64,000 nucleotides of DNA, from assembly GCF_032362555.1 (NCBI RefSeq), contig NC_083518.1:7328501-7392500 (forward strand), given 5' to 3'. Below are positions 6,301-60,398 of the stretch, piece by piece. The first letter of the stretch is position 1. The number at the start of each line of letters is the position of its first letter. The notes under the pieces were generated by a model. That model had not been told where the DNA came from, did no database searches, and saw nothing but the letters and a program-made list of their open reading frames with translations. A program made the translations under genes and the position numbers. This DNA is from Amyelois transitella (taxonomy: Eukaryota > Arthropoda > Insecta > Lepidoptera > Pyralidae).

Positions 6301-9300
6301 TTATGTAATAAACCCAACATTTTTTTACGTTTATTTACGTCTTAAGATACGAAGGTGCCTTTTGGTTACCGACACCAATAGAAAAAAGAATAGGACCATT
6401 CCATCATTTCCCATATATGTCGTATAAGGTGACTAAGGAATAGGCTTATAAACTTGCGATTCTTCTTTAGGCGATGGGCTAGCAACCTGTCACTATTTGA
6501 ATCTTAATTCTATTTTAAAGCCAAACAGCTGAACGTGGTCTATCAGTCTGTTCAAGACTGTTGGCTCTGTCTACCCCGCAAGGGATATATACGTGATTAT
6601 ATGTATGTATGTAGATACGAAGGTGGTATCTCCTTACACATGAACGGTTCGACGACATCATTTTTCGTCATGGAAAGTTAGGGCGACAGGAATGTTCGTT
6701 CTTGCATGGTTCTTCGACGGCAAAGTAGAAAGTCATTTTTAGCCGATGAAAAAACGGCGAAATTTCACTATTCGACCCGTATATAACTATATTTCTTTTT
6801 TCAACTTTGATTCGTGGACAGAAAATTAAAAAACAATAAAGACGAATAGTTAGAAGATGAATAGTCCTTAGAGAAATTTCCTTTATATGTTATTTGCGTG
6901 ACTGGGACATGATGACGACGTCTAATTAAGATACTCTTCAAAATTAACTAAGGGATTTATAAATAAATAAATAATTTCTTTATTTCTGTACCAACTTAGA
7001 TCAAACATATTTGTGACCGAGAACTCCTTTTAAGTAAGGAATTACCTGTGTTAAGAGATCCCGCTCTTCAATAACAACAAGTATTTAAATTTACGTTGTA
7101 CATCATTAAAGTTTAATTATTATTAATAGTACAAATGTTAACTGAGTCTAAATGTTAATTTAATTTATACGTTACTAGAGGCCGCCCGCGACTTCGTCCG
7201 CATGGAAACCCTATCAATCCCGCGGGAACTCTGGGATAAAAAGTAGCCTATGTGTTATTCTGGGTCTTCAGCTACCTACATACCAAATTTCATGGTAATC
7301 GGTTCAGTAGTTTTTGCGTGAAAGAGTAACAAACATCCATACAAACTTTCGCCTTTATAATAGTAGTAGGATATTATGGTAAACATTCCAGGTGGTGGAG
7401 TTCCTGTCGTCCATCCACCTGTTCCGCATGTTCCCGGGACTTGCTGAAGGTGGACTGGCCACCTACAGGGCTTCCATTGTACAGAATCAACATTTGGCAC
7501 AGCTGGCTAAGGTACAGCAACCCACATTAAAAACACCACTCATGACACGAAATGACGGAGATATTTGCTTATAAATGTCATTATTGTACAATAAAACGAT
7601 GTTAACATTATGCAGAATGAAATATATAAACGCGGATCTATCTTATTTAGGTATCTCTTCCAGTCAGAAAGACGGCCTCTTTGGCTCAGCGGCAGTACGC
7701 TTGTCTGTGACACCGGAGGTCCCGGGTTCGAATCCCGGTCAGGGCATGATGAAAAAAGAACTTTTTCTGATTGGCCTGGGTCTTGGATGTTTATCTATAT
7801 AAGTATTTATTATAAAATATAGTATCGTCGAGTTAGTATCTCGTAACACAAGTTTCGAACTTACTTCGAGGCTAACTCAATCAGTGTAATTTGTCCCGTA
7901 TATATTTATTTATTTATTTTATTAGTCAACCAGACGAAAACAGTGGGACCCTGGGCCCCGAATCGTTGTCGTGGGAGGGTGGGATGCAGCAAAACTGAGG
8001 AAAATGAATAAAGAAATAGAGAAGATAAGAATAATGTGTGTTTCAGAACATCGATTTGGAGCAGTTCATGCTGTACGCGCACGGCTCGGACCTGTGCCGG
8101 GAGGTGGTGATGCGGCACGCGATGGCCAACTGCTTCGAGGCGCTCATGGGCGCTTTGTTTCTGGACGCCGGGTTGCAGGTAGCACTTTGTTTTATACTAG
8201 AGGCCGCCCGCGAGTTCGTCCGCGTGGAAATACTATCAAAACGTAACAATTAGCTTTTGTCAATCAGGAATGAATCCCGTGGGAAATCCGGGATAAAGCC
8301 GTAGCTTATGTGTTATTCTGGGTCTTCAACTACCTACATACGAAATTTCATCGTAATCAGTTCATTAGTATTTGCGTGAAAGAGTAACAAACATCCAAAC
8401 ATGCTCACTTATATAATTAGTAGAATTCTTCCTCCTGGCTTTAGTCCCGATTGCATCCTCACCTGAGATTCTTCTCACCATGATCGTGATTACCTACACG
8501 AAGCGACTCAAGCATGGTTGATGCAAGTTTTACTCGATCAAACGAGTCGAGCCAGTACGAGTATAGTTTGTATTATATTTTTGTGAATTTCTTCTGTATG
8601 TATTTGGAGCAATGAAGAGATTTCTACAAACTGTAGTCAATAGGAATTTTTTTGAATTTGAATCAATTTCCTTCGCTTCATCCACATTCATAACTCTCTT
8701 CATGCAAGCTCGGCGGTTTCGGGTACTTTTCACCTGACCCTTTACCAAGACTTCCTTAATTTGATCAAGATACGTTCGTCTACGTCTTCCCACACCGACC
8801 TTTCCCTCCACACTCTCCTTGTATATCTGCTATGAATATGAATCTGTATATGAATGTACATTGCCAAAATACTGTTTGACCGAGATGTACTGTGTAGAAT
8901 TTGACCGAGCTAAATTTATATTTAGGTAGCGGACCGTGTCTTCGCCCTAGCGCTGTGGTACAAGGAATCTGATCTTCTGGAAGTGTGGTCCAAAGAGCGC
9001 GCCCATCCCCTACAAGAACAGGAACCATTGGGAGACAGGAAGTACATCAAGGACTTCGATTTCCTGCGCAAGCTCACCGAGTTTGAGGAGTCTATTGGTG
9101 AGTTATTTTTTTTTTATTAATTTAATTCATTCATATAATCACGTCTATATCCCTTGTGGGGTAGACAGAGCCAGCAATCTTGAAAGACTGACAGGCCACG
9201 TTCAGCTGTTAGGCTTAATGATGGAATTGGGAATCAGATTGTTTCTCTTTAAAGAAACTACTACACACATATACTCGTAGAAGGTCAAAAGGCGGAAGGT

Positions 9301-12300
9301 TTCTTTTTTCCTGAAAATTCTGATGCATGAACCAAATCTTAAGTTACATGACAGTTACAAAATATTCGTCCATTGGTTACCATTTTAGTTATCCATAGTT
9401 ATACAGGGCTCCTATTGAACAAATTGCATGTTATTGCCTTTTTTACCACAATTTTAAGGCAAGAAAGAAAAGTTACACATTCTGAATCTGGCGTAGGCAA
9501 CCATACTGGAGTGAACCGCGTTATTATTTTATGGACACAATTTCAATTGAAGTTTGTGTCCATGCTCTAACATTATTTTGAAAAAAAAAATATTGAATAC
9601 AAAAACACCTGTTTTGGAAGATGTAAAATTAAGTTACGTTAGGGTGATGGCTCCATTACGACAACATAATGTCGTTGGGTAATGCATTTTTGAGTTATTA
9701 CTGCAAGCTCTATTTTTTAACAGACAGGTGCCTTTTTTTAATTTATCCACTATTTAATCTGCAATATTGCGAGGTACCTTTTCTATATTTCTCGTCAAGT
9801 TTATCTAATGTTAGTATGTCTAATTTAAGTTTCTTTTTCTCTTTTCTCAGGAGTACAATTCAAACACATCCGCCTTCTAGCAAGGGCGTTCACCGACCGC
9901 TCAGTGGGGTTCACGCACCTGACCCTGGGCTCCAACCAGCGGCTGGAGTTCCTCGGAGACACCGTGCTGCAGCTGGTGGTCTCCGACCGTCTCTACAGGC
10001 ACTTCCCCGACCACCACGAGGGGCATCTGTCTGTGAGTCTGTTTGTCACCATGTATATCGGGTTCACGCACCTGACCCTGGGCTCCAACCAGCGGCTGGA
10101 GTTCCTCGGAGACACCGTGCTGCAGCTGGTGGTCTCCGACCGTCTCTACAGGCACTTCCCCGACCACCACGAGGGACATCTGTCTGTGAGTCTGTTTGTC
10201 GCGATGTATATCGGGTTCCCCACCTGACCCTGGGCTCCAACCAGCGGCTGGAGTTCCTCGGAGACACCGTGCTGCAGCTGGTGGTCTCCGACCGTCTCTA
10301 CAGGCACTTCCCCGACCACCACGAGGGGCATCTGTCTGTGAGTCTGTTTGTCGCGAGGTATATCGGGTTCCCCACCTGACCCTGGGCTCCAACCAGCGGC
10401 TGGAGTTCCTCGGAGACACCGTGCTGCAGCTGGTGGTCTCCGACCGTCTCTACAGGCACTTCCCCGACCACCACGAGGGGCATCTGTCTGTGAGTCTGTT
10501 TGTCACCATGTATATCGGGTTCACGCACCTGACCCTGGGCTCCAACCAGCGGCTGGAGTTCCTCGGAGACACCGTGCTGCAGCTGGTGGTCTCCGACCGT
10601 CTCTACAGGCACTTCCCCGACCACCACGAGGGACATCTGTCTGTGAGTCTGTTTGTCGCGATGTATATCGGGTTCCCCACCTGACCCTGGGCTCCAACCA
10701 GCGGCTGGAGTTCCTCGGAGACACCGTGCTGCAGCTGGTGGTCTCCGACCGTCTCTACAGGCACTTCCCCGACCACCACGAGGGGCATCTGTCTGTGAGT
10801 CTGTTTGTCGCGAGGTATATCGGGTTCCCCACCTGACCCTGGGCTCCAACCAGCGGCTGGAGTTCCTCGGAGACACCGTGCTGCAGCTGGTGGTCTCCGA
10901 CCGTCTCTACAGGCACTTCCCCGACCACCACGAGGGGCATCTGTCTGTGAGTCTGTTTGTCGCGATGTATATCGGGTTCCCCACCTGACCCTGGGCTCCA
11001 ACCAGCCGCTGGAGGACAGGAATTAAATTTTACTTCTAAAAATTATCGTCTCCCCAAAAAGTAAAATAACTTGACTAGTGCATATTCCCTGAACAGAGAA
11101 CTATAAACATAATCGCCAATAGATGACGTTTATGTGAACTAATTTACATACATACATATAATCATGTCTATATCCCTTGCGGTAGACAGAGCCAACAGTC
11201 TTGTAAAGACTGATAGGCCACGTTCAGCTGTTTGGCTAATTGATAGAATTGAGATTCAAATAGTGACAGGTTGCTAGCCGATCGCCTAAAAGAAGAATCT
11301 CAGTTTTATAAGCTTATCACTTTGCATACATACATACATACATATAGTCACGTCTATATCCCTTACGGGGTAGACAGAGCCAACAATCCCGAAAAGACTG
11401 AATGACCACGTTCAGCTGCTCGGCTTGATGATGGAATTGAGATCCAAATAGTGACATGTTGCTAGCACATCGCCTTAAAAAAAGGATCGCAATTTTATAA
11501 GCCTATCCCTTAGTCGCCTTTTACGACATCCATGGGAAAGAGATGGAGTGGTCCTATTCTTTTTTGTTTTGGTGCCGGGAACCACACGGCACTCATCACT
11601 TTGGCCCGCCAATAGCAGCTAGTTCAGTATGCATGGGTCGCTTCCAGCTGCTGCGCTCGTCGCTGGTCAACAACCGCACGCAGTCCTTGGTGTGCGACGA
11701 CCTCAACATGTCCGCGTACGCCATCTACAACAACCCCAAGGCGAAGCCGACCACCAAGAAACACAAGGCGGACTTGCTGGAAGCCTTCCTGGGCGCGCTG
11801 TTTATTGATAAGGTATTTATTTTATTCCTCGGCACAATTTTTTTTGAACTGTTAAATGCGATAGTAACCACAAGACTTAAAGGTTGCCTTTAAAATTAGA
11901 TGGATAGTTTATTTCATGCTGGGGATAAATCTAATTATTGATTTGTGATCAGTATAAAGATACTTTTATTTTATCCTTTTAACGTCAAAGTGCTATAAAC
12001 ATAAAATTTTTTGTTTTGGGGCTAAATTGAAAATTATATTCCATAACTAGCTGTGCCTGCGACTTCGTCCGCGTGGAATAGTTATTTTGGGCATCATTGA
12101 AGCTCTCAAGGATGGATAATTTTCCCCCTTTTTTTCACATTTTAAGAATTACGAATGAGTGTTATTAGTATTTAATTTAACATTAATTTGACATAATTTT
12201 TTTATTTATGAACCGATTGACATGTAACAAACACTAAAGCATAACTGAAGCATACCACAATATATTCGTGAAAACCGCATCCAACTCGGATCAGCCGTTT

Positions 12301-14786: not shown

Positions 14787-15183
14787 TGTAGCTCTTGTTT
14801 TAATTATTCAGGACTGAACGGAGATAGTGCCAGATGTAAAATCACTAAATCAGTTCTCTTCTCAGTGATATGAAGTTGAAGGAAACCCTGTAAGTAATGA
14901 ATAAGTGTAGAAACCAATTCATAAAACCAAAATAATTCTTTTTAATATGTTTCAAAATTTACTCATATCTTTCTATAAAAGAGACAACAAAATTGGCTAC
15001 TAGAGACAAAAAAATCTAATTATATCAATAAATTAAAAATTAATGTTTTAGAAGAATCATGATGTGTATATAATAATAAGTTTTAATTTCAATGCATCAA
15101 GTAAAAATACGTCGAGGGGATACATAATCTCAATACGTGATAACTTTGATGTTTGGTCAGCATACGACCAAAATTTAACACTG
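14787..15183. other. Drosha 3' flank, no gene
   Basis: AT-rich sequence after the Drosha stop. A candidate polyadenylation signal 'caataaatt' lies near 15026. 14818-14890 loosely repeats wording from the last exon ('gtgccagatgtaaaatcac', 'cagttctcttctcagtgata' against 'gataatgccccggatgtgag', 'cagttctctactcagcgaca'), which may be another decayed exon duplicate. Confidence 0.45.
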
Positions 15184-16515
15184 TACTACTCTGTCAAGAA
15201 AGTAGCAGGAAAAGATCAATAATACACAAACTGTTTGTTATTCATCCAAATTTATTTTATCACCTTCAAAATATGCTCTTTTAGAAACGATACACTTACG
15301 CCAACGAATAATCCAATCATCAAAACATTTTTTAAACGCTGTTTCCGGAATTGAGGTCAGTTCTCGCCGCGAATTCTCTTTTATGTCTTCTACCGATTGA
15401 AAACGGGTGCCACGAAGTGGTAATTTGAGTTTAGGAAAAAGAAAAAAGTCGGCTGGAGCCATATCTGGTGAATATGGTGGTTGCTCGATGGTATTTGTTG
15501 AGTGTTTGGTTAAAAATTCGTTCACAATGATGGCCTTGTGCGAAGGTGCATTATCATGGTGCAAAATCCAAGAATTTTCTTTCCACAAATCTGGCCTTTT
15601 TCGTCGGATTTGCTCTCTTAAACGCCGCATAACACTCAAATAATATTCCTTATTTACCGTTTGACCTTCCGGCAAGAATTCCGAGTGCACAACACCGCGA
15701 TAGTCAAAGAAAACAGTCAACATGACTTCGACTTTTGAACGACTTTGGCGTGGTTTTTTCGGTTTCGGTTCAGTTGGAAGGCGCCACTCCGAAGCTTGTT
15801 GCCTAGTTTGCATGTCAAACTCGTAAACCCACGTCTCGTCACCAGTAACAATGCGTTTCATGAATGTTGGGTCGGAATTGACTCGTTCTAGCATGTCCTC
15901 AGCGACTCTCATGCGATTGAGTTTTTGAAAAAAATTCAGGTCTTTTGGGACTAGCCGAGCGGCAACATGTTTCATACCCAAATTATTAGTTAAAATGGTA
16001 CGGATCGACTCATGAGATACAGAAAGTTCGGTGGCTATCTCTCTCAAAGTTGAATGAGGATTTTCAGTCACTATTTTCTTCACTTTTGCGATGTTAACTT
16101 CAGTTGCAGACGTTGATGGCCTACCAGAGCGAGGCAAATCTTCCATCACATCTCGACCGCTTTTGAACGCTTTGTACCACTCATAAGCACGAGTTTTTGA
16201 TAAAGTCGATTCACCGTAAGCCTTCTGTAACATTTTCAGTGACTCCGAATACGATATTCCATTGACAATGCAAAATTTAAGACAAACTCTTTGTTCGATG
16301 TTTTTATCCATTATGAAATTAGCAATACACACTAGATATGATATAACTAAAAATAGCACTGTATTTAATGTAAACAACAGATGCAACTCAAACTCCGCGC
16401 CAAAATGGAAAACAGTTTAAACAGTTGTGCCAATCTAACAACAAAAAAAATCAAAAATTTGAATTTGGAACCATAAATAAATAATCCATTCCCGATACTT
16501 TTCTGACTGAATGTA
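15184..16515 (-). mobile_element. Complete mariner transposon
   Basis: About 1.33 kb, the usual mariner size. The ends are imperfect inverted repeats (left 'ctctgtcaagaaagtagcagg', right complement 'ttcagtcagaaaagtatcggg'), each next to a TA dinucleotide as expected from TA target duplication. The single frame inside runs on the minus strand. It sits between the convergent 3' ends of Drosha and the CCDC142-like gene. Confidence 0.88.
15238..16311 (-). CDS. Mariner transposase, 357 residues, open
   Basis: Cut-and-paste DNA transposase. The chosen start is the ATG at 16311 (MDKNIEQR); the frame stays open 25 codons further upstream, but those residues fall in the 5' untranslated end of the element. 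A helix-turn-helix DNA-binding half covers about residues 1-110. The catalytic half shows TGDETW (first Asp), HHDNAPSH (second Asp) and SPDMAPADFFLF (third Asp). There are 34 residues between the second and third Asp, the DD34D signature of classical mariners. The WVPHEL-type linker is read as RLVPKDLN. Family members are about 345 residues. There are no stops or frameshifts, so it may still be active or have arrived recently. Subfamily not assigned. Confidence 0.92.
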   Translation of the reverse strand: MDKNIEQRVCLKFCIVNGISYSESLKMLQKAYGESTLSKTRAYEWYKAFKSGRDVMEDLPRSGRPSTSATEVNIAKVKKIVTENPHSTLREIATELSVSHESIRTILTNNLGMKHVAARLVPKDLNFFQKLNRMRVAEDMLERVNSDPTFMKRIVTGDETWVYEFDMQTRQQASEWRLPTEPKPKKPRQSRSKVEVMLTVFFDYRGVVHSEFLPEGQTVNKEYYLSVMRRLREQIRRKRPDLWKENSWILHHDNAPSHKAIIVNEFLTKHSTNTIEQPPYSPDMAPADFFLFPKLKLPLRGTRFQSVEDIKENSRRELTSIPETAFKKCFDDWIIRWRKCIVSKRAYFEGDKINLDE

Positions 16516-17354
16516 TGAATAAATCCCTGGTACCCTTAAACTTGTCTTTTTAATTATTTTGTAGCTCAGTTACATAGATGTAGTAACCGCATGCCCAAAT
16601 CTGTCAAAAAAAAAACCCTACTTTATTTTGGGAGTTCAATGGCGCGCTCTGATACTCATCCGCTGATCTTAATGCAGTGGTATATTTAGGTAGAACCATT
16701 AGATGAAAATCCCCCATGTACCTACATACGATCTCAGAGAGAACACCCTCCTAGAATTATAAGTCACATAAACGAAAAAATGTTTTTTTTTATTTATGTG
16801 AATTATAATTCTAGGAGGGCGACATTCCATACAGAAGATTACTAGCTAGTATATGCGTGAATTATGTATGACGTAAATAAAACAAGCAATATAGTACATG
16901 TGTAAATAGTTCTTTATTTGTATAGGTATTATGTATTATAGAGCAATATCATAAAGAGATAATGATTCACACCCGACTTTCATTCTTATACATTTGTGTT
17001 GTAACCATAGAAATCACAATGTTATAAACAATAGCCATATTAGACTTGAAGATCTTCACATATTTCTCTCAACTTTCTCCACTCACTACTACTACTACAT
17101 TTTCGACTATTACGGGTAGGTCCTCCTATCATCTCTTTTTTTCACATCATCAGAAATGACAATAAAAGTATTATTTATTTCCATAATAATTATTCCGAAT
17201 TCTCAAAAACACATTGACATTTCCAAGATCCATGGGACACTGGCACACTGTATTTTCTTCGTTACCAGACCAGCTTCGCATCTTACATTAGACGATTGAG
17301 CTCCTATTCCTTTATTCACCTTTTACAAGCTCCATATAAAAAATAAAACGAAGT
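16516..17354. other. Gene-free interval with a 26-bp hairpin
   Basis: Probably the 3' untranslated region of the CCDC142-like gene (minus strand). A TTTATT at about 16914 is a polyadenylation signal on that strand. 16747-16773 and 16793-16820 are near-perfect inverted arms ('ctcctagaattataa' and complement) around a T-rich loop, resembling a tiny foldback insertion. Confidence 0.5.
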
Positions 17355-23300: not shown

Positions 23301-26300
23301 CAATGATCGGATGATCCAATTTTTTTCCGATTTATATGTATAAAAACAAACATTTATATAAAGTACCGTGTGGTTCCCGACACTTTTAAAATAGGACCAC
23401 TCTTTTCCATGGATGAAAGTAGGTACCTACTATTTGAATCGCAATACCATCATAATGCTATACAGCTGAACGTGGCCTTTCAATCTATGCGAGACTGTTG
23501 GGTTTGTCGTCCCCGTAAGGGATAAATATATTATCATAGTAGAAGCTATACCATTTATTTCTTTTTATAAGTAAACCTTGTATCGATAAATTGTACCTAA
23601 TTTATTTGACTTTAGTTACTTACTATGTGGAAATTATCTCATTTTGTTAAAATATGTAAGTACCTAATTTTGCTCATGTCTATAATCTGACCAACAGCAA
23701 CAACATACATAGGAGATAAATATTTGTTGTAGGTAAGCATTTTAAATTAAAAACATGTTATATATAAAATTTAAAACATATTATTTACGTATTTTCATTG
23801 CTAAACAATTTTAATATGGTATTACGGGCACCTTTTTTATTGTAGGTTAGGTATCCATTAGATATATAAAAATATAAATGAACCAAATTAATATTCAAAG
23901 TTCGCAATTTTTTTTACTAAGAAACAGATGTATGTTTTTTACATGTAAATATGATACTTCGAATTGATCTTTATGTTAAAAAGGAATAGAGTATCTATTC
24001 ACGTGTCTTGGGGCAACTGACCTTGTCGGGTTGTTTATCGTTTCGTACCGAATCAGTATTCGCGGTAATCCCGGCCGACTCGCGCGCAGTATTGTCAGCT
24101 ACTTATTTACCTATTTACTTTACCGACTTGCTAAAGGGGAAGGTGTGTTATTTGTACGAAGGTAAGCTGTATTATTGTTAAAGTTAAATCGAAAAGTATG
24201 ACTGATTATCTTTCTGTTTACAAGTATTTCAACTTAAAAGTTTAGATTACATTCAAAACACATTGGTTGAAAAATTAAAAAAAATAACTTATCTTTTACG
24301 CTATTCCCTTCCGCTGTTTTGAGTTTTTCTAAACAATTATTCACGTGTCTTAAGTGTTCTGCTGTCTTGAGTTTTTCTTAAATAAATTAGTAAGTCCTTT
24401 TGAAATAGAAAATTTTACATACATACATAAAATCACGCCTCTTTCCCGGAGGGGTAGGCAGAGACTACCTCTTTCCACTTGCCACGATCCCTGCATACTT
24501 CCTTTGGTTCATCCACATTTATAACTCTCTTCATGCAAGCTCGGCGGTTTCGGGAACTTTAAACTATAGAAAATTTTAATGGTTACAATTACGATATTAC
24601 ATAAAAAAATAGGTATTTCTCAAAACCGTGTGCCCAAAAGAGAGAACATAAAATATGTTAATTGAACAGATTGATAGATAAGTTTTTATTTTGGGATTTG
24701 ATAAAACATCGTCTAATTTGAGCGTAGCATGGCAACACCGAACTATGTGAAACTTTACAGAGTTAAATTGATTGCGTTCGTTGCTAGTGCAATATCAGTA
24801 GTATTCCAATAAAATTAGAGACGTTTTTATATAAGACAGAATTGAGCATCAACTGAGTATATAAGACTCATAGATATATTTGTATCAAATTTAAATGTTG
24901 AATACTGTTTGAAAGAGAGGAAGTGTTAGTTAGTTTAAATCGCCTAATTCGTGTAGAAAAAAAATTGAATTTTTAAAATTTAAAGTGCAAGGCAGACATT
25001 TTTAAGTAAGTAAATCATTGCTATTATTATCTACTAACTAATAAGAAAAAAACATGTAGGATGTGTCTGGCCACCAATATATAATAAAATTATTGGTGGC
25101 AGTAAAATAATGAAGACTGGAGTACCCCCGCGGTTTCATTCGCGTGGAATGTGAAGTCCCATTTAATTTCCAATCCGCGGGAATTTCGGAAAATCCCCTC
25201 TTAGTGCGCCCCGAGACCAGGTAAGGGACCTACATGCCAAATTTCAAATAACCAGAACCTAGTGGTTTAGGCAGTGCGATGATATGTCAGGCAAGCAGCC
25301 CGTACAGCGTCTCTTTGATATAGCTTGACCTTGGTCAATATATATATATTTCTATATAGGCTTAAAAATAAATTAATTTTAGTGAGTTTATTATGGATTC
25401 TTTCATGTGTAATATATATATGAGATTGTATTTAAATATTTAGAAGTATGTTTTTAAATATTAATTGCACGCCTTTTTCCCTTACGGGTTGGACAGAGCA
25501 ATAGTCTCTATAGCCACTTATAGCTGGATAGCTTAATTAACCAAGCAAGCGAAGTTAGTGAGGTTTATCACACAGCAATCAACTTGGGGCGAAAACACAT
25601 TTGTTTTTATGTATAATATATGTTTGTAACGATTACTTTCGAACAGTTGGTCTGTTTTTGGTTAAATATAAACATATGTAGAATCTGTTATTTTTAAGTT
25701 CATGGGGATCAGAAAGTAAGCCCGATGTTTAAGTTTGTAGGGAACAACAAGTTATTGAAATTAAAATTAGCTGGCGGGATTTCAGTATACACAAATTAAA
25801 TTTTAACAAATCTATTTGTTTTCTTTAATTTCAGCAAAATCAACAACTTTGGTATGTCGTTAAAACAGAGTTTGGTCCAATGTCTGGAGGAATTAAGAAC
25901 TCTTAACCTTATTCACGAAGTGCGATCTCGACCAAGCAAGGGGAAAGCGGAGAGGGTGTTGAATCTTATATACCAGACAGGCATAAAGAATACAACCTAT
26001 ACGGACGAGGAAAAGAAGAACATAGGAAATCTATTGGCTAATGCTATCAAAGCTATCAAAGTGAACATCGTAAGTACAGCCAACGCCGACCGCACACGGC
26101 TTGAAAATGCCGTGTTGATGAAAAGATCAGCTTTACAGTTTTTGATTGACAATTACGGCAAATTTCCAGTCGGGAACTCAACCGTCGCCAAAGAGCTAGA
26201 TAAAGAAAATATCTCGGAGAGTGTGAAGATATTAAACGAAATCATTGACAAGTGGTGCGATTTAAGCGATTCAGACGAAGGTTCAAGTGATAGGGAAGCG

Positions 26301-29300
26301 GCAGGGGCGAGAATAGTACCGGCTTCACACACGTGGTGGACTGTGTGAAAAATTAACCAGGCTGTATTTAACGAGCATAAGAACATTTCAAAATGAATTT
26401 TCTATCAAATGTACTTGATTCAATCCCCGTAGTAGGTCACGTAAAAGGAGTGGTTCATTACGCAGTTGGAGATACTCAAGGTGGTAATAAAGCGATGTAC
26501 CAATCCACCAGAACAACCGCAGTCCTTGCCGGAGGAGCTGTCGGGTGTGTCGCAGGACCAGCTGGAGCTGTAGCGGGAGCTATGTCCGCTGGACTTGCCA
26601 CTGATACAATTGCTTCTATAGCTACCGATAAGCCACAAGGAATTATTGAAGGCTGTGACAATATCGGTAGTGATATAGCAGCTGGCAGAAATCCAACTTG
26701 TTCTATACTCTCTACAACTGTTCAACTTGGTTTAGATGGAGTAGGTGGCTTAGGGATGGGTGGAGTAGCAAGTGCTGCCAGTAATATTTCTGAAAAAGCT
26801 GTTGCTAAAACTCTAGAAAATATTGGTAAAAACGAAATGACAAAGATAGTGTCTAAGAAAGTGTCCGAAAAGGCAGTTCAAAAAGCTATACAACAGGCAG
26901 TTGTTCACGCTGAAGTTGCGTGTGTGACTGCTCATATTGGATTAAAAGCGAGTAAAAGAACAACTGAGGAGGAGAAACAAGAAAAACAAGAGCAAAATGA
27001 AAAGGTAAGGAAAGAAAGATATAAACGCGAACAAAGCAAAGAAAGGCAAGCCAGCGCCGGTAACCAAGGTACGAGTACCGGATCCTCGCAGCAACCAGAA
27101 GGAAACGGAAACGGAAACAACAATAATAAGAATAATAAAAATAAGCCAGACTACTTAGACATTTTCATGAAATTACTTAAAAAACTCTTAAAACGTATAT
27201 ACGGCAATGAAAGAGAATATATCTCTGGCATTTTCGAAAATCTTTCTCTGGGTCAAATAAATTATTTGAGGGGTATCATTGAAGTAACAATGAAAACCGG
27301 TACACTAGAGGAGGTGGTTGAATTAGTGATAAGAATGTTTAAAGGACATATGTCCAAAAATGTTTCATTTGAGAATTTTCTTAGTCTTTTAGAGTTTGTC
27401 CGGGCATATCTTTTGGGCGAGATAGACGTGAGAGAGACCGAGTCAACGAGGTACAACCAAGAAACACACGATCAGCGACGCGCACAAATTCTTTGTGACA
27501 TCATGGGGGAAAGAGATACAGTCGAAACACTGGTTCGTTTGTTCAGAACGCTGCAAGCTGAAATCGAAGCTGAGACTGCGGTTCCCAACAACATATCGCC
27601 CGATTTCCGTGACATATTCGCCGCGGTGTATCACTACTACAAACATAGATGTGTACCAGAGGACGGAGAACTGTCCGTCAAGGATTATTATAATTGGATT
27701 CGAAAGGCGTTGGAAAAACTTAAGAAGAAGACTAGATATAGACAAGAAGTGGAGAATCAGAGAGGTCCAGTGACGTGTCGGTATGAGTATTATGTGGAGG
27801 TGTTCGGGCGTCGGTTTAGGATTGTCGTGAAGGTGCGGGGCGGCCGCTTGCTGCTGAGCTCTGCCTTCTTTGTGAGCATCTGCTTCGAGGGAGACACAGA
27901 TGAGACCGAAAATTTAAAAATAGAAAAGAAATAAACACCCATGTACAGATACTAGTCGTTATGCATTTTCATAAGGGTTATTTGATTTTGTATTTCTTAC
28001 TTTATATTTCTTTTTCTTTTTTATATATTTATATGTGGTTATACAATTTTTTTTATGCAATTATAAGCCAATCACAGTAAAACAACCATAAAATGATATT
28101 TTATATTTGACTGCTATAGTCGTCATTCAATCTTCATTCTTTTGACGGCCTCTGTAGCGCAGCTGTAGTGCCTGTGACACCGGAGTCCTCAGTTCGAATC
28201 CCGGCCGGGGCATGATCAGAAACTGACTTTTTCTGATTGGCCTGGGTCTTGAATGATTATCTATATTAGTGTATATTATTATTATAAATAAGTAAGTAAG
28301 TAATGAGTAAGTATCTCGTTACACAAGTCTAAAACTTACTAGGAGGCTAACTCGATCTGTATAATTTGTCCCATTTATACTTTAATATAATCTAATCTAT
28401 TATAATTAATAAGATTTGTTTTTTGATTAAATACGATGTAACAAAGTATGTAATAAAGTGCATAAAATACAATCTTATTTATATTTTATGCACTTTATTA
28501 TATATACTAGCTTCCCCCCGCGACTCCGTCCGCGCGGATGTCGGTCTTCGCGTAGATGGTTTATTTCTCCATTTTATTTTCAGTCCGGTCAATTTAGACC
28601 AAAAAATAGGAATGAAGCTACATTAATTCCCATCAAGCTGAAAATGAGTATAATTGTTTAAAACACAATCAAAAGCATTATTTCAAATTCCCCATGATTA
28701 CGGTTTAAGGAAAAAAATTACCCAAGGTCAAAGGTAAGAAAATGGGATTTTCACGATTTTCTTCAAAACGGTAAGTTTTATAGGAAAATTACCTCAGACA
28801 TAGATTGTAGATCATAAAGATATCTATAAAAAGGAATCAATATTTTTTTTCAATAAAGCTACCGTTTCTGAGAAATTACGATGCAAAAAGTTGTTAGCGT
28901 CATAATATGCATAAGCACGTCTCGTATATACTTTGTGTAGCAGTAATATAAGTAAAAATATTAATTATTAATTTAGTAAAAATAATAATTAAGTATAATG
29001 AAACCCAGTCCCTTCATTTATACTGTAGTGAAACCTTGAGACAACATCTGTCTCTCTGTTTAATTGTGTACGTGGCTAGGGTCGTATAGCTGCTTTATCT
29101 CAGGATGCTCAACACATGAAATACCGTTAGTCTTTAATAATAGTAGTACTTGCGGGGATACCGTTGTCGGCTATGGACACCACGGCCTCTCATGTCCTAG
29201 GAGTGCCGGCCGTTTAGGGCGCCATGCCACCCTAAATGATATAATCCTCCGTGCTCTTGCCACCATCCATGTTCCAGCCGTTCAGGAACCAAACGGTCTG

Positions 29301-35300: not shown

Positions 35301-38300
35301 CATGGTACCAGTTGTCTTAATCTGGTTTCTTGATAATTTTTCTCCCTCACCGTAGAGCATCGGTTATCATTTTAATCAATGTTCGTAACTCAGAAAAAAT
35401 CACTGGTATATGGCCGCGGTGTGATTCTATGCTGTGTACCGGACGAAAAACCAATACTAATACTCTCGAAAATTCAATTACTTACTGATAAATTTCTAGA
35501 CTTTCTGCTGTGCTGGCGCTGGAATCCGCGTCAGAACTGTTTCCAGGCTTGTACACCTTCACGAGGCAGTTTATCAAACGGTGGCAGTTCACTTCACACC
35601 GGCTCTTGGCTAGAATCTTATATAAATATTAGTTTGATTTACTAAACGTAAGAATTTCATAAGATGAAAACCAAATATTAGCTGTAAGTAATTAATGTTA
35701 AGTTTGGTTATTTTGTAAGAACTGTGGTTAAGAAAAGATGATCTGAAAAGCAATTAGGTTTCGGGCCGAATAGGAAGAAAAAGTACTTATTATATTTATA
35801 TTCAAATTCAAATTCAATTCTTTCTGCAGGGTATTTTTGTCATGAGATATTACGCAAGCTTTTGATAACGTACACTTGATATTTTGCTTATGGTACCTAT
35901 CCGAGAAAATATACCAAATTTGATAAAATCTTATTTATTCTAACGTAGGCGAATTACACAAATATCAAAGTTACTAATCAAAAGAACGATGCCTAAAGCT
36001 TGGTATTCCTCAATTATAATTTATATTACTTAACTATATTTTATATGTGGCGACATCTCTACGCCACACGTCACAACAATAAAAAATGAAATCACGGGAT
36101 AGCGTCCCGTGATTTCAGTTTTCAGTCAAAATACAAAAGTAAAACCTACGCATAACACCTAGCCTTGCGGAAGATCTTCCCTTTGGTGGCGGTCGAGCCG
36201 AATCATCGCTCCCGCTACATATACATTAATAATGCCTACTTTAGTTGGGAATTAATACTCTAAGCTGCCGTGGTATAACTAAAATGCCGTTATCTGACAT
36301 CAGGATTTTCACCTTTTATAAGAAGAAAAAAATCCCTTTCGATCTGTATATACGACTTTTTGGTACCTTTAAGTCATAAATAGGCGTTCTCATTGATGAA
36401 TGGCATCAGTTCAAATTTTTAACCGCATTTTTGACGTTTTACTTAAAACAAGGATTTGGCAGATAACGGCATTTTAGTTATACCAGGGCAGTATGACAAA
36501 AATGAAAGATTCGTTAAAGGTTAATATGACTTAAACGATAACTCATATTAGCTTAAAATTGAAAAGACACAAATACGAGAATTAATAGTTGTTCCCTTTC
36601 CTGTCTTGGTCAAAGGTCAACCCTAGTAACCTGGCAAATAGTCGTAATTGGGCACTAAGTAAGTAACAAAATCTGGACCTGAATTACCTGGACAATTTTA
36701 GTGAGGGTGACAGTCTTGGTCTCACTGATGGTGCTGGGGTACGCGTTGCTGCACACACTGAACTTGTTCACGAAAGCTTTCGAGCTCAACCCTAGTAGGT
36801 GGTTGTAAATGCCCACTAAACTAAAATCGAAATATATACAGCTTATTTGATACAAATTCATACAAATCATTTTGTGCTTCATATGAAACTTTTATTACCT
36901 ATATCGGTAATTACAAAAAACTGTCATGTTTGCGTGCTACCGGTTGCATCTTAAAAGGATATTTATTAAAAGGATTATTACAACCAAAATAATGAAAATT
37001 TTACCAAAAAATACACTTAAAAGTCAATTTTTCCAATTAAAGCAATTCGCAGCTTAAAGGAGACAGATACATACATAAAATCACGCCTCTTTCCCGAGGG
37101 GTAGGCAGAGACTACCTCTTTCTATTCTTATAACTACATCTAAAAGAGTAATCTAATTAAAGAGAGATCGACATGTAAAAGAGACACGTTTTAATAAAAA
37201 AGAAATAGGTACCTAAAATATAACCATTTTAAAAGTACTTACCTCAAACAAGATTCAATCATCTTCCTTGAGTCATCCCTATGCAAACAGGTGTTCAATA
37301 TAGTCGTAATCAGACCGTGCATGGCTTGCAGCATCACGAACCTAACACTGCAAAGTCGGGCAAAGATGTGGTCGTGCTTGCTCTGAACCAGGGCATTCAC
37401 CTTCTTGAGCCGGGCCAAACGGGGATTGAGCTTGTAGAAAGATTTCACAATTTTCGACAAGTATTCTATTATTTGATCTAGAACCTTAAAAAATATCAGA
37501 GATGATTTTGGATTTGAGAATCGGTAAGGACTTGAGAAATACCTACGCAGTGTAGTTACCGATCAGATGCTATTAAAACCCTAATAGTACGAGATCCGGC
37601 TGCAAAATCACTACGTTCATCGCGTAGTTAATCAAACTCACATTTTAACATACATTTATGAATAGGATAATACATAGATAATAGGGTGCCAGTCAATAAG
37701 TGGCCGCAAGTAATTTTAATTAAATTAATGTTAATTAATTTTCCAAAAAAAATTTCGTTCACTTGTTTTTTAAATAAAATATCATCCACATCATAGAAAT
37801 GTATGTAAAGAATTCGAAAATCAATGGGTGCCGTTACACACTCGGCCGCAACTACTACGCAGCCAGGTGTAAACAGGTAATATTTTGGTCTATTTATACG
37901 TTCATGTCGTACACGCATGTTTTTTATATCAAATTAAAGCTAATTTTTTTTAATATGATGATATATCGCTGCCTGTGAATAAATGGCCGCAAATTAGGGT
38001 TGCTAGCTGTTAAAAACTCGAGGTATCCGAGATAAAGTGAAAGAGAGTTAGCGCGTAACGCCACTTGTTAGACAAGGATGGCGAGTACCAGCTGTGCGAG
38101 TATTTGAAGCCATTGCGCACGCGTCAATAGATTGGGTTCTCAGCCAGCGATGCAAACAGTAATACGAACGACTTTACATTTACTCCAAAATTATAATTAA
38201 GTAATTAATATTCTGCAAAAAAAAAATGAAAATAAGAAAATATTTATTTCATAATAAAACATTGTTTATTGATCAAGTAAAAATGAAAAAAGCGTACTTA

Positions 38301-39380
38301 TAAAGAATAGAATTTTTATTGCACTGTTGAGAACCCTATCTATACGCGTGCGCAATGGCTTCAAATACTCGCACAGCTGGTACTCGCCATCCTTGTCTAA
38401 CAAGTGGCGTTACGCGCTAACTCTCTTTCACTTTATCTCGGATACCTCGAGTTTTTAACAGCTAGCAACCCTAATTTGCGGCCATTTATTCACAGGCAGC
38501 GATATATCATCATATTAAAAAAAAATTAGCTTTAATTTGATATAAAAAACATGCGTGTACGACATGAACGTATAAATAGACCAAAATATTACCTGTTTAC
38601 ACCTGGCTGCGTAGTAGTTGCGGCCGAGTGTGTAACGGCACCCATTGATTTTCGAATTCTTTACATACATTTCTATGATGTGGATGATATTTTATTTAAA
38701 AAACAAGTGAACGAAATTTTTTTTGGAAAATTAATTAACATTAATTTAATTAAAATTACTTGCGGCCACTTATTGACTGGCACCCTATTATCTATGTATT
38801 ATCCTATTCATAAATGTATGTTAAAATGTAAGTTTGATTAACTACGCGATGAACGTAGTGATTTTGCAGCCGGATCTTAGACTATAAGTGAATTTATGAA
38901 GGCATACAATGACATCATTGAGTATATTACCAAAAGCTACATAGGATGAGAAGAACCCTAATTGGTAACCGGGAATTAATTTCCAACAAAGTCTCGACTT
39001 ATGTCTGATAAGTACAAGACTAATTTAAACAATGTTTGATCTTGATAAAGGTTGATTCCATAAAAGTTTTTATAAAACAGCTACATCTAATAAAGTTTTA
39101 ATAAGGCATACATAAGACATTGAAATACATTATAATGGTTATTAATGATAGATATAACATAACTTACCTGTATATTAACCAATTCCATGATATAACTCCT
39201 ATTCGACAGAGAATACACACTAGTTTTGCCAGTAGAGCCTTTCCATTTGTTGTCTGCGTCTAATATCACTTTTGTTATGGCATAACAAACCACCTCCATT
39301 TCCCGGCAATGGCTAAATAGTTCCTCTTCGTCACTGGACTCCTCGCTTATCCATTTTTTACTGACCACTTTGCTAGCCAT
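17355..39380 (-). CDS. CCDC142-like protein, 819 residues, 18 exons
   Basis: Exons (minus strand, 5' to 3'): 39380-39168, 37484-37243, 36820-36688, 35616-35486, 35030-34780, 34082-33966, 33536-33407, 32613-32555, 32324-32234, 31678-31606, 31194-31047, 20997-20830, 20301-20216, 19921-19768, 19118-19001, 18648-18532, 18202-18102, 17482-17355. They total 2460 nt with one open frame. The start [10 protein letters not shown] has an acidic stretch after it; an in-frame ATG also exists at 39473. The protein is largely helical, with a [20 protein letters not shown] coil in exon 5 and no signal peptide. The last third ([58 protein letters not shown]) resembles my memory of the conserved CCDC142 C-terminal domain, whose function is unknown. 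The exon 4 acceptor has a weak pyrimidine tract and was fixed by frame. Intron 11 is 9.8 kb and hosts other genes. Confidence 0.72.
17603..17835 (+). repeat. SINE-like repeat, nearly full length
   Basis: 'tctatatcccttgcggggtag' family, from 'cacgtctatatcccttgcga' to 'gagtggtcctattctttttt'. It lies in the last intron of the CCDC142-like gene. A partial second copy in the same orientation is at 17931-18075. Confidence 0.75.
19180..19330 (+). repeat. SINE fragment
   Basis: Contains 'aaacctgcacattcgggcaa' and 'ggcaggagtcgcttggagta', body words of the family whose fullest copy is at 48280-48595. Confidence 0.5.
20042..20142 (-). repeat. SINE-like repeat fragment, reverse
   Basis: 'tctatatcccttgcggggtag' family read on the minus strand; 'gaacgtggcctttcagtctt' is diagnostic. 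Confidence 0.6.
20690..20810 (-). repeat. LINE-tail repeat, reverse
   Basis: Reverse copy of the 'tttcccggaggggtaggcagag' family. It carries the same coding-tail wording as 8560-8830 ('atgaatgtggatgaagcgaa', 'gatcgtggcaagtggaaaga'). Confidence 0.6.
21285..21400 (+). repeat. SINE-like repeat fragment
   Basis: Words 'gtgacagattgctagcccat' and 'tagcctatcccttg' place it in the 'tctatatcccttgcggggtag' family. Confidence 0.5.
22377..22610 (+). CDS. 77-residue glycine-rich protein, truncated paralogue of the 513-residue nested protein
   Basis: Lies on the plus strand inside intron 11 of the minus-strand CCDC142-like gene. The start at 22377 gives [20 protein letters not shown], which aligns from the first residue with [20 protein letters not shown] of the protein at 26393. 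Similarity continues through GDTxGGNxAM and a Gly/Ala-rich hydrophobic stretch ([14 protein letters not shown]), then stops after about 70 residues. The frame ends at 22610, with an AATAAA near 22671. A 20-base palindrome (atttaagat/atcttaaat) lies upstream at ~22288-22308. It could be a small membrane-active peptide, a first exon of something longer, or a truncated pseudogene. Not assigned to a named family. Confidence 0.5.
   Translation: MGWVSDLLDSVPVMGHLKGAVHYAIGDTAGGNRAMNRATWTSAVIAGGAVGYAGGPVGIVVGALFTGVVTSQLSVMG
22712..22800 (+). repeat. SINE-like repeat fragment
   Basis: Short piece of the 'tctatatcccttgcggggtag' family, ~100 bp downstream of the 77-residue ORF. Confidence 0.6.
23365..23530 (-). 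repeat. SINE-like repeat, reverse, internally deleted
   Basis: Starts 'cgtgtggttcccgacacttt' and ends 'ccccgtaagggataaatata'. The central part is missing compared with 6350-6612. Confidence 0.6.
24418..24560 (+). repeat. LINE-tail repeat
   Basis: 'aatcacgcctctttcccggag' through 'catgcaagctcggcggtttc'. Same family as 8660-8830 and 47413-47700. Confidence 0.65.
25069..25300 (+). repeat. Short hairpin and RTE-like tail
   Basis: 25070-25079 and 25091-25100 form a 10-bp inverted pair (gccaccaata). From 25118 a diverged 'cccccgcggtttcattcgcg' element of the RTE-like family runs to ~25300. Confidence 0.45.
25854..26348 (+). CDS. 164-residue helical protein, first ORF of a nested two-ORF unit
   Basis: Not recognised. 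Intronless, on the plus strand within intron 11 of the minus-strand host gene. It starts [20 protein letters not shown]; a splice acceptor (tttaatttcag, ending near 25834) just upstream suggests a spliced 5' leader. The protein is charged and predominantly helical by composition, has no obvious membrane segment, and ends in an acidic Ser/Asp-rich tail ([12 protein letters not shown]). The stop is 44 nt before the ATG of the next ORF on the same strand. That spacing suggests either a dicistronic mRNA or two closely packed transcripts. Codon use and frame length make a chance ORF unlikely in such AT-rich DNA. No function can be given. Confidence 0.7.
   Translation: MSLKQSLVQCLEELRTLNLIHEVRSRPSKGKAERVLNLIYQTGIKNTTYTDEEKKNIGNLLANAIKAIKVNIVSTANADRTRLENAVLMKRSALQFLIDNYGKFPVGNSTVAKELDKENISESVKILNEIIDKWCDLSDSDEGSSDREAAGARIVPASHTWWTV
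26393..27934 (+). CDS. 513-residue protein with glycine-rich N-terminal domain, second ORF of the nested unit
   Basis: Uncharacterised. The start [20 protein letters not shown] is supported by the paralogue at 22377, which begins at the same residue. Residues 1-75 contain [10 protein letters not shown] and a Gly/Ala zipper-like hydrophobic stretch ([20 protein letters not shown]), compatible with membrane association. Residues 75-185 continue Gly/Ala-rich, then helical. About 190-260 is a Lys/Glu/Gln/Asn-rich linker ending in [14 protein letters not shown]. About 260-513 is a helical domain with a C-terminal part ([20 protein letters not shown]) that may be beta. I have a memory of similar glycine-rich N-terminal regions in unnamed proteins of other invertebrates; this is unverified. 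There are no introns. AATAAA overlaps the stop region near 27930. Confidence 0.75.
   Translation: MNFLSNVLDSIPVVGHVKGVVHYAVGDTQGGNKAMYQSTRTTAVLAGGAVGCVAGPAGAVAGAMSAGLATDTIASIATDKPQGIIEGCDNIGSDIAAGRNPTCSILSTTVQLGLDGVGGLGMGGVASAASNISEKAVAKTLENIGKNEMTKIVSKKVSEKAVQKAIQQAVVHAEVACVTAHIGLKASKRTTEEEKQEKQEQNEKVRKERYKREQSKERQASAGNQGTSTGSSQQPEGNGNGNNNNKNNKNKPDYLDIFMKLLKKLLKRIYGNEREYISGIFENLSLGQINYLRGIIEVTMKTGTLEEVVELVIRMFKGHMSKNVSFENFLSLLEFVRAYLLGEIDVRETESTRYNQETHDQRRAQILCDIMGERDTVETLVRLFRTLQAEIEAETAVPNNISPDFRDIFAAVYHYYKHRCVPEDGELSVKDYYNWIRKALEKLKKKTRYRQEVENQRGPVTCRYEYYVEVFGRRFRIVVKVRGGRLLLSSAFFVSICFEGDTDETENLKIEKK
28144..28380 (+). repeat. tRNA-derived SINE, second copy
   Basis: Same family as 7671-7920: head 'gtagcgcagctgtagtgcc', B-box 'agttcgaatcccggc', body 'ttctgattggcctgggtctt', tail 'aggctaactcgatctgtata'. 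Confidence 0.85.
28451..28500. repeat. Perfect 18-bp inverted repeat
   Basis: taataaagtgcataaaat at 28451-28468 and its exact complement at 28483-28500, with a 14-base loop. It may be the footprint of a miniature foldback insertion. Confidence 0.7.
28611..30322. mobile_element. Element with ~310-bp inverted arms enclosing a decayed nuclease-like coding region
   Basis: The left arm (about 28611-28920) is the reverse complement of the right arm (about 30016-30322) with modest divergence. Shared words are 'gctacattaattcccatcaa', 'aaacacaatcaaaagcatta', 'acctcagacata', 'aaagctaccgtttctgag' and 'gcgtcataatatgca'. Between them lie ~1.1 kb with a broken coding region (29150-29690). Total is about 1.7 kb. 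The layout fits a DNA element with long terminal inverted repeats; target duplications were not identified. It lies in intron 11 of the CCDC142-like gene. Confidence 0.75.
29150..29690 (+). pseudogene. Broken element-encoded domain (GHHGLSC..SAGR..RH..LND; RPDG..WD.T)
   Basis: One frame reads [40 protein letters not shown] and [16 protein letters not shown]. After a frameshift near 29440 a second frame continues [20 protein letters not shown] through [18 protein letters not shown]. This layout (possible zinc-binding Cys/His start, then RPDG and WD.T) is a domain I associate with mobile elements of many invertebrates. The spacing of acidic residues resembles a PD-(D/E)xK nuclease, which is inference. 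The frameshift makes it non-functional. Confidence 0.6.
30350..30690 (+). repeat. RTE-like retroelement tail, old
   Basis: Starts 'tagcggcccgcttgtgcagc', contains 'gggataaaaagtatcctatt' and ends near 'acagacagacagac'. It abuts the right inverted arm. Confidence 0.55.
31205..31395 (+). repeat. SINE-like repeat
   Basis: 'tctatatcccttgcggggtag' family ('cacgtctatatcccttgcga', 'gttgctagcccattgcctac'). It begins about 10 bp upstream (host strand) of CCDC142-like exon 11. Confidence 0.65.
31800..31945 (+). repeat. RTE-like retroelement tail fragment
   Basis: 'tacccgcagcttcgcccgcg' then 'ccgggataaataatatctat'. It is an old copy in a CCDC142-like intron. A shorter one lies at 33022-33060 ('gttgcccgcgacttcgttcg'). 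Confidence 0.5.
32890..32942. repeat. 21-bp inverted repeat (hairpin)
   Basis: catagaaaagtatacgtcta at 32890 onward is matched by its complement at 32920-32942 with one two-base bulge. Loop of 9. Confidence 0.7.
33158..33392 (+). mobile_element. Solo-LTR-like repeat (TGT...ACA)
   Basis: About 235 bp beginning tgtagcgggagcgatgattc and ending cgccaca, with an internal 'ttgtatatatag' TATA-like word. Related copies are at 36046-36219, 43954-44150 and 52418-52629. TG/CA ends and the TATA word suggest an LTR without its internal region. It ends only 14 bases beyond the exon 7 splice donor of the CCDC142-like gene. Confidence 0.6.
36046..36219 (-). mobile_element. Solo-LTR-like repeat, reverse
   Basis: Reverse copy of the 33158 repeat: starts tgtggcgacatc and ends cgctcccgctaca. 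It is flanked on both sides by 'tata', a plausible 4-bp target duplication. Internally shorter than the 33158 copy. Confidence 0.6.
37592..38877. mobile_element. 1.29-kb foldback element with ~550-bp near-identical inverted arms
   Basis: The left arm (37592-38142) and right arm (38328-38877) are nearly exact reverse complements, with a ~185-bp AT-rich loop. Outer ends read agatccggctgcaaaatcac. A chance 96-codon frame occurs in both arms (minus at 37628-37918, plus at 38551-38841) and differs by one residue, which shows how alike the arms are. No transposase is present, so it is non-autonomous. It sits in intron 1 of the CCDC142-like gene. Target duplication not clear. Confidence 0.88.
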
Positions 39381-39727
39381 ATTCGAAATATGAAATGAAA
39401 ATAATATAAATCTAAATAATCCATGTGTTAACTGCTTGGGATCATTATGACTAATGCCGCAACGTTTGAACAAAATCGATGGAAGGAGACGGCGGTACCA
39501 GGGCCTCCGGAGCGCCTAAGCGGTTGTAGGACAACTTGCAAATCGCTATAATTAAACTCTTTATGACTGTTCTATCCATGAATTGACGGTATGGAAAACT
39601 ATATCATATGGGTAGTTTTCATACAAGCACACATATTTCAATTGTATGATTGAAATATGTGTGCTTAAAGATGTTCTTGAAAACTTTTACAAACTCGTTT
39701 ACCATAAACATTTGTATTAAATTTTGC

Positions 39728-39955
39728 GGTGTGGTTCCCGGCACCAATACAAAAAAGAATAGGACCACTCCATCTCTTTCCCATGGATGTCATAAGAGGC
39801 GACTAAGGGATAGGCTTACAAACTTGGGATTCTTTTTTTAGGCGATGGGTTAGCAACCTGTCACTAGCTGAACGTGGCCATTCCGTCTTTTCAACACTGT
39901 CGGCTCTGTCTGCCCCGCAGGGGATAAAGTCGTGACCATATGTATGTATGTATTA
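39728..39955 (-). repeat. SINE-like repeat, reverse, full length
   Basis: 'tgtggttcccggcaccaata' to 'gccccgcaggggataaagtc' then 'tatgtatgtat'. One of the best-preserved copies in the window. Confidence 0.75.
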
Positions 39956-49738: not shown

Positions 49739-50731
49739 CTGGACTGGAGTCGATTGAGTCAGTGTCAGTGGACTGGCTTGAATCTTTTGGGCTGGACTCT
49801 TAGCTGGACTTGGACTAAAAGGAAGGCTGGACTGGACTCATTGTTGTAATTTTGACATTGACATCTTCAAGATGTTTTAACTATAACGGTACCCGTAGAT
49901 AATACGGATACGCAGCCAAAACATGCTTTGACTGTAGGATTGTGAGCCTAAACACAGATTTAAAAACATTACTTGGCTGAACCTGAACATCTATTAACAA
50001 TTATTACATATTTCTTAACCTTATCCAAGGAGATTATAGTCCTATCTTCAGATCCGAAATAAAAGACAGAGAGAAAGATGGTTAAAGAGAGAACCATTAT
50101 ACTTTGTCAACATTAGTAAATCTTTCCCACGACGTAAAAGCATCATACTAATCACTTAAACTGTCAAACTAAATTTGAATTCAACAAATTGGATGAAAAA
50201 ATATTTCACATAATACATACATACATAAAATCACGCCTTTTTCCCGAAGGGCTAGGCAGAGACTACATATTTCCACTAGCCACGATCTCTGCATAATAAT
50301 CACGTTAATAAAGATAAATAAAGAGCTCCCAAATTAACTGAACATGTGGATAATATAACAAAAAGGGCAAACAGTGGTTTTGTGTGCATTTCAAGTGGAT
50401 AGATTTTTCCGCTAAGTGCACAGTTTTGTCTGCTATCCTAGTTAAGAACCACGAGTCTAAACTTGGCCCTCTGGTAACGTCTCTGAAACATTTCTACCTT
50501 TGTATGTAACAGAAAATGCTGGTGCCGTATGCTTTCAAAAGTTAATTAATACTGTCAATGTCAAAATTGTCAAACTATTGTAAGTTCGGCAAATTCGGCA
50601 ATTTGCGTTTGCGATTTCGTTTCGTCGCCTTTGACGGATTTAATTCAAACACAGATTCCATTTATTTATTACTTAGCTTTTAAGAAATTAAGAAATAATT
50701 TATATTAACCTGCCTTATAGAATCATTATAC
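49545..50731. promoter_or_regulatory. Head-to-head interval between TMEM185 and NAE1
   Basis: Holds the divergent upstream regions of both genes. It also contains a tail-only tRNA-SINE ending in a 28-A run (49711-49738), a 'ctggactgg'-rich stretch (49739-49840) and a LINE-tail repeat (50214-50296). No TATA box or initiator can be fixed from sequence alone. Confidence 0.4.
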
Positions 50732-55634: not shown

Positions 55635-56367
55635 GATGGCGTTATTCTATCTATAATATTTACACATTCACACGATTATAAGCTCATTTAAATTCCACAA
55701 ACTCTTACGACGGTACATGCATCTTTTCCTTGTCAAAATTGAACAAGAATATCCCCGACATCTTGCGAAGTTTAGGCAGCGAGCGATACCTTGATCGACG
55801 ATTACGAACCTCGAAATGTGATGTGAAAGAAGATGATTGCGTTCTTAAAGTAGATAAGACTTTAAACAGAAAAAATGATTTCGTGTAAGAACTGTACGTA
55901 AATAGATTTGGAAAATTCAGGATTTCAGGAAAAGTCAAAAGAGTCTTCCACTATCACATTCTAAGATCGCAGTGTTGCCATATGTTTATTTAATAATTTA
56001 CACTAAAGTCGTATTCGATATCGCCATGACTTTGATAGAACTTTTTTATACTTATTTAAAAAACAGATATGGCGTGTCTGGCTTGCCAAAATTAGGACTC
56101 ACGAGTCAAAGATGGATGTAAATATCCTCTTTTGCTTGTATTGCAATGAAAAAAGCTGTCATTGTCAAACCGTTTAAATAATTAATGATTTTATTTTTTG
56201 TTCGTGTTTTCTTCGTTGGTCATCGTCTGTCAATGGGTACCGACTGACTGATCAACTTATTTATTATTTATAGCCATATTAAAGATGAGGTGACGTGGAT
56301 ATTAATAAATAATTAAACACTTATGCATTCCAATGAATAAAGATTCAAACTAACAAAAAACACTAGA
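55635..56367. promoter_or_regulatory. Head-to-head interval between NAA30 and ADPGK
   Basis: A 733-bp spacer between divergent start codons. A 77-codon minus-strand frame (55705-55938) has no recognisable content. It likely holds both promoters; no element can be pinpointed. Confidence 0.4.
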
Positions 56368-59996: not shown

Positions 59997-60398
59997 TTTA
60001 GATTATTTGAGACTTATGTCAGATACAGTATAATTCACTATGAGTTACTATAATTTACAAAGTTGATTGTACAAACAGATAACTTTCAGGTAAATCACGA
60101 TTTAATTACTCGTTTTGTAGTGATTTCATATTTCTAACCTAACTTACCTTTGTCAGTTGCCTTGCTTTTGTTTGTTCCTTTTCTTGTCTTGATCAAAACC
60201 TGAAAGCAGTGACAGTGACATATCAGTGCTGACATTGATAGATCATGCTGAATGAGATGCTGGTAGAGTAGTAAAAAAAAATTTTTGGTGTAATGTAAAT
60301 AACAAAATTTTACATAATTTCTCAATTTACTTATTATTTTTGTATCTTCAGAAAAGAGGGAAGACACAAAGAGGACTTGCTTTGTGCTATGCATCAGA
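59997..60398. promoter_or_regulatory. Head-to-head interval between C1D and the ZAD gene
   Basis: A 402-bp spacer. A splice acceptor-like 'ttttgtatcttcag' ends near 60351, suggesting that the ZAD mRNA may have an upstream untranslated exon here. Confidence 0.35.

Follow-up and report, generated by a model that had tools for sequence, protein, structure and literature searches.

A tandem array of an exon end and its splice donor in the Drosha gene of Amyelois transitella

In Amyelois transitella, the exon that encodes the core of the second RNase III domain (RIIIDb) of Drosha is followed by a tandem array in which the end of that exon is repeated together with its splice donor. We favor, with a probability of roughly 0.6, the reading that this array is a young, exon-derived minisatellite that is nearly silent, with minor leakage to an isoform carrying 51 additional residues and to nonsense transcripts. 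Seven identical, regularly spaced donors before one acceptor constitute a natural experiment on spliceosome choice among equal sites, in a gene for which tight constraint on output is to be expected. Any use of donor 2 would yield a Drosha in which the RIIIDb metal-binding motif occurs twice; if only donor 1 is used, the array would show how well exon definition shields an essential gene from local repeat expansion.

The array and the exon that it copies

Tandem Repeats Finder located the array at 9907-11014 with periods of 152 (7.3 copies, score 2105), 305 (score 2105) and 457 (2.4 copies, score 2165), and the runner-up tandem array within the window, by which we mean the whole 64-kb stretch of DNA analyzed, scored only 527. 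The top repeat score among 20 first-order Markov resamples of the window was 70, compared with 2165 for the array, which rules out a chance origin. The copies lie head to tail and the unit is tens to hundreds of bases long (period 152, 7.3 copies), which is the form of an intronic minisatellite or variable number tandem repeat (VNTR).

The array consists of seven complete units and one partial unit (Table 1), with unit starts spaced by 153, 152, 152, 153, 152, 152 and 152 nt. One unit comprises the last 126 nt (42 codons) of the native Drosha exon and 27 nt of the intron that follows. Because unit 1 is itself the original end of the exon, six complete copies and one partial copy are additional. 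The complete units 2 to 7 are 96.7-98.7% identical to unit 1. A one-base deletion is present in units 3, 4, 6, 7 and 8, and apart from changes at the junctions the exon-derived part contains two changes, of which that in units 2 and 5 is synonymous and that in unit 8 is a replacement. An exact 457-nt periodicity, 589 nt long, starts at 9916. The preliminary description had placed seven complete units and one partial unit of 152/153 bp at 9908-11014 in a 457-bp higher-order (trimer) arrangement; its counts, spacing and periods stand and the trimer is borne out by the exact periodicity, but the start lies at 9907.

Table 1. Coordinates of the array, the surrounding Drosha exons and other features of the window (caret, splice point)
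Feature	Position	Strand	Remarks
Upstream Drosha exon	8926-9097	+	Between the two RNase III domains; acceptor tatatttag; donor GTGAGT; phase 1; collinear with human Drosha
Native Drosha exon (182 nt)	9851-10032	+	RIIIDb signature; last 126 nt in unit 1; acceptor ttttctcag; donor TCT^GTGAGT; PDB and Pfam matches of joined exons
Unit 1	9907-10059	+	Native exon end 9907-10032 plus 27 nt of intron
Unit 2	10060-10212	+	In frame with unit 1; donor after 10185; synonymous G>A
Unit 3	10213-10364	+	One-base deletion at start; TGA 10225-10227; extra donor-like GAG^GTATAT at 10358
Unit 4	10365-10516	+	One-base deletion; A-type end
Unit 5	10517-10669	+	Full length (153 nt); same as unit 2
Unit 6	10670-10821	+	Same as unit 3; extra donor-like site at 10815
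Unit 7	10822-10973	+	B-type end; last complete donor, after 10946
Unit 8 (partial)	10974-11014	+	Ends at CTGGAG; one G>C change
Interspersed repeat	11145-11592	+	Tandem pair 11145-11511 (188-bp period) plus tail; between array and next exon; ends 55 nt before exon
Next Drosha exon	11648-11812	+	LLRSSLVNN...ALFIDK; acceptor is the expected partner of the seven donors
Mariner-type transposase frame	15238-16416	-	Apparently intact; Transposase_1, HTH_48, DDE_3; just downstream of Drosha
Open frame, 182 aa (stop to stop)	25800-26348	+	No Pfam match; adjacent to next
Open frame, 517 aa (stop to stop)	26381-27934	+	No Pfam match
Inverted repeat, two arms	37592-38142, 38328-38877		
ThiF-family frame	50699-52342		547 aa; Pfam
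GNAT acetyltransferase	54918-55646		Pfam
ADP-dependent phosphofructokinase/glucokinase, piece	56341-56706		Pfam
ADP-dependent phosphofructokinase/glucokinase, piece	57474-58262		Pfam
Sas10/Utp3/C1D protein	59562-60002		Pfam

The three Drosha exons of Table 1 were assigned from frame and splice sites. Joined through donor 1, they encode a product that matches human Drosha (9asm chain A, E 1.1e-69) and the Pfam family Ribonuclease_3 (PF00636, E 8.1e-23; 81.6 bits, cut-off 27), in agreement with the earlier assignment of the gene to Drosha and of the unit to RIIIDb. A longer hand-joined peptide, for which splice sites were checked for three exons and the remaining joints were picked by eye, aligned over 403 of 405 residues with 6v5b chain A (E 4.9e-163); the alignment spans RIIIDa, RIIIDb and the dsRBD, and its gaps measure only one or two residues. 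Thus, two RNase III domains and a dsRBD lie collinear with a solved Drosha structure. To judge from the sequence, Drosha looks intact over the part covered, from RIIIDa to near the C-terminus, with unit 1 as its apparent working exon end.

The repeated unit includes the glutamate of the motif NQRLEFLGD, which by hand count along the 9asm alignment aligns with human E1147, given an isoform offset that we take to be 37. E1147 and D1151 are described as metal-binding residues of Drosha, and E1147K as dominant-negative (PMC13049099, in part). The portion of PMC6124762 covered here gives one Drosha homologue per pest, the fall armyworm among them, leaves other isoforms possible and makes no mention of a Drosha insertion of the 51-residue type.

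Origin and age of the array

The junctions between units fall into three types, A (caccatg...ttcacgcacc), B (cgcgatg...ttccccacc) and C (cgcgagg...ttccccacc), which, read along the array, run A, B, C, A, B, C, B. Ten variable columns were found, of which columns 1, 4 and 6 were omitted as aligner placement of the one-base deletion; five of the other seven lie in a 22-column stretch at the duplication junction (post hoc binomial test, p 0.001), a clustering that would fit error-prone junction formation. Together, the 457-nt periodicity and the junction variants point to a stepwise and recent expansion. In the simplest history that we can draw, a 153-nt stretch reaching from inside the RIIIDb exon across its donor would have been duplicated in tandem (A), probably by slippage, template switching or unequal exchange, and this step would have been followed by single-unit copies (B), a point change (C) and finally a three-unit duplication of 457 nt. 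The 589 paired sites at the 457-nt offset show zero mismatches. Given a mutation rate near 2.9e-9 per site per generation, a hand calculation from this figure places the last step less than about 0.9 million generations ago, unless gene conversion homogenized the array.

The exact repeat also bears on the copy number, which rests on one assembled sequence. Rather unlikely, in our estimate, is an assembly artifact or inflated copy number, in which the genuine array is shorter, with perhaps four units and the partial one, and the assembler doubled it across the exact 457-nt repeat. Just such an exact periodicity over 589 nt would result from a local assembly duplication, and it is for this repeat that inflation is most credible. 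However, the A, B and C junctions and the G>A change of unit 2 mark distinct units, which would be hard to derive from a single-copy exon by error alone.

Amplification driven by a hairpin is unsupported, as the unit, compared with its shuffles, folds no better when taken as DNA (z 0.23) and has only a slight advantage when taken as RNA (z -1.02). Three units together do fold better as RNA than shuffles (z -3.42, with 0 of 100 as good), which in our reading may simply reflect the repetition of a unit that is partly self-complementary. Two post hoc observations at the end of the array were given no weight: the array ends at the foot of a CTCCA/TGGAG hairpin, and the G>C change in unit 8 converts CCAGCGGCTGG to its own reverse complement.

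Seven donors and their predicted products

The preliminary description had assigned a splice donor to each unit, and indeed the seven complete units share an identical TCT^GTGAGT donor. The seven donor 9-mers (TCTGTGAGT) are spaced by 153, 152, 152, 153, 152 and 152 nt, and each has a computed U1 pairing of -5.0 kcal/mol, compared with -8.7 for the donor of the upstream exon and -5.7 for that of the next exon. The extra donor-like sites of units 3 and 6, which arise from a T>G change, score -5.8, better than the repeated donor. Among 121 GTs scored in 9851-11700, five non-authentic ones beat -5.0, the best at -6.2. Since these five GTs, not known as donors, outscore the repeated donor, the U1-pairing measure ranks sites poorly.

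The anatomy of the array, which repeats exon 3' ends without an acceptor, means that any competition would fall among donors. With donor 1, where the exon ends at 10032, the product is the normal protein and is collinear with human Drosha. Donor 2 (10185) adds 153 nt, that is, 51 residues that are in frame and free of stops and that place a second RIIIDb core at the insertion point HLS^LLRSS; this is the open frame claimed earlier for a unit 2 of 153 nt and 51 codons. Donors 3 to 7 (10337, 10489, 10642, 10794 and 10946) all read into the TGA of unit 3, which lies 110, 262, 415, 567 and 719 nt, respectively, upstream of the resulting exon junction, and for this reason their transcripts would be candidates for nonsense-mediated decay. 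The earlier claim that later units carry a one-base deletion and bring in a stop thus holds for the stop, but not for unit 5, which lacks the deletion. Exon lengths would be 182, 335, 487, 639, 792, 944 and 1096 nt for donors 1 to 7, with introns of 1615 down to 701 nt; the exons of 639-1096 nt that donors 4 to 7 would require are long for internal exons.

In a nearly silent minisatellite, unit 1 would stay the working exon end, with ordinary Drosha made from donor 1, and the six extra donors would be identical decoys within the intron. Exon definition, acting on an exon of normal length, should hold donor 1 in use; any use of donor 2 would insert the 51 residues, and any use of donors 3 to 7 should turn the transcript into a decay target. 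Near silence is to be expected because exon definition should favor donor 1 and because an essential enzyme should not tolerate wholesale diversion of its transcripts. Counting against donor 1, the intron-proximal of several equal donors is often preferred, which would favor the later units. In a human-cell reporter with two competing donors, 27 of 32 elements tested in the interval between them suppressed the proximal donor (PMC1877881, in part), so that donor choice there depended on the intervening sequence.

We regard as improbable the alternative that the array is functional, with seven competing donors that tune Drosha output and a copy number that sets the Drosha level; the Drosha made from donor 2 would then contain its RIIIDb core twice and be altered or dominant-negative in its action, and transcripts from the later donors would go to nonsense decay. 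The open 51-residue insertion from donor 2, the stop reached by the five later donors and the identity of all seven donors are consistent with such a role, as are the presence in the unit of the residue aligned to human E1147, whose change to lysine is called dominant-negative (PMC13049099, in part), and the correlation of the length of an intronic VNTR in ABCA7 with exon skipping (PMC5954066, in part). Against this, the observations give neither array-driven regulation nor a functional 51-residue isoform any positive support, and the units are too uniform to reveal selection. The GC content of the array, at 62%, is like that of an exon and unlike the 33% and 40% of the flanking intron, so the array might be recognized as one long exon; in that case nonsense transcripts would be frequent, and Drosha output would be held down by the array. 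Still more speculative, and quite improbable, is a donor array tunable by copy number, with duplicated-core Drosha from donor 2 and a nonsense brake from the other donors, in which changes in array size would alter microRNA processing between individuals or populations.

On the acceptor side, the pyrimidine fraction over 17 nt is 0.59 at 11648, 1.0 at 9851 and 0.53 at 8926, and the acceptor at 11648 is weak, though not uniquely so within the Drosha gene. Four other AGs occur in the 34 nt before it (11614-11647), and the use of any of them shifts the frame. Each unit contains an AG (tctctacag^GCAC) with a pyrimidine fraction of 0.71. It falls mid-codon (TAC AG^G), the donor lies between codons, and joining the two shifts the frame.

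Each Dscam exon has its own two splice sites. An array of alternative exons of the Dscam type, with each unit a separate exon, is hardly credible here: repeated exon sequence with donors and the higher pyrimidine fraction of the unit AG than of the authentic acceptor at 11648 would speak for it, but the units begin 56 nt downstream of the acceptor at 9851, which no copy contains, the unit AG is out of phase with the donor, and the copies repeat the same coding sequence. As no unit carries the acceptor of the exon, the array is one of alternative donors and not of alternative exons, and mutually exclusive exons were rejected. Dscam and Drosha share tandem coding copies inside one gene, but the Dscam copies are mutually exclusive, separate exons (PMC1397879, in part), whereas the Drosha units lack an acceptor and are nearly identical.

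Related systems and neighboring sequence

The Drosha array is a variant of known intragenic tandem repeats that touch splicing. Like the ABCA7 VNTR (PMC5954066, in part), it is a tandem repeat in an intron of a single gene with a potential copy-number-dependent effect on splicing; unlike that VNTR, its units each copy the adjacent exon end with a functional-looking donor, and the splicing effect is here only potential. It also resembles intron gain by tandem duplication, as described for a potato RdRp gene (PMC4974935, in part) and in a Drosophila survey (PMC2891723, in part), in being a within-gene duplication that copies splice signals. In those cases the duplicated segment includes either an AGGT-type proto-splice site or an acceptor together with its tract, and a new intron results, whereas the Drosha array has a donor without the acceptor of the exon, offers alternative donors, and comprises seven copies with a three-unit higher-order period. 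Intron gain by the route of Rogers was rejected, as that route requires a duplicated AGGT that supplies both a GT and an AG site, whereas the donor here is TCT^GTGAGT and AGGT appears only in units 3 and 6 through the junction T>G change.

No report of a Drosha exon array was found among the best-ranked literature matches, as judged by titles and the starts of abstracts. When the 60-aa exon peptide was searched against viral contigs, 8 stretches matched the pattern and 0 were confirmed, and a 24-nt donor probe matched nothing in those contigs. Against genome contigs, the peptide matched at least 595 stretches, of which at least 264 were confirmed; the 80 kept are bacterial by title, are presumed to be ordinary RNase III and did not enter the further analysis. 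Because the collections searched hold viruses, bacteria and archaea, the absence of an insect relative says little.

Minus the array copies and the interspersed repeat, the intron would measure an estimated 0.2 kb (27, 130 and 55 nt), which implies that both insertions together lengthened it several-fold. The family of the interspersed repeat is abundant in the window in both orientations, with copies near 5590, 6355-6613, 9118, 17602, 17934, 31204, 39725-39953 and 54405, among others.

Rfam, at gathering scores, gave 0 matches in the whole window. Around the mariner-type frame, a quick check of 14901-16800 revealed no clear terminal inverted repeats. The two arms of the inverted repeat listed in Table 1 are each ∼550 bp long, 99.1% identical and ∼185 bp apart, and each holds a nearly identical open frame of 101 aa, the minus-strand frame being without a Pfam match.
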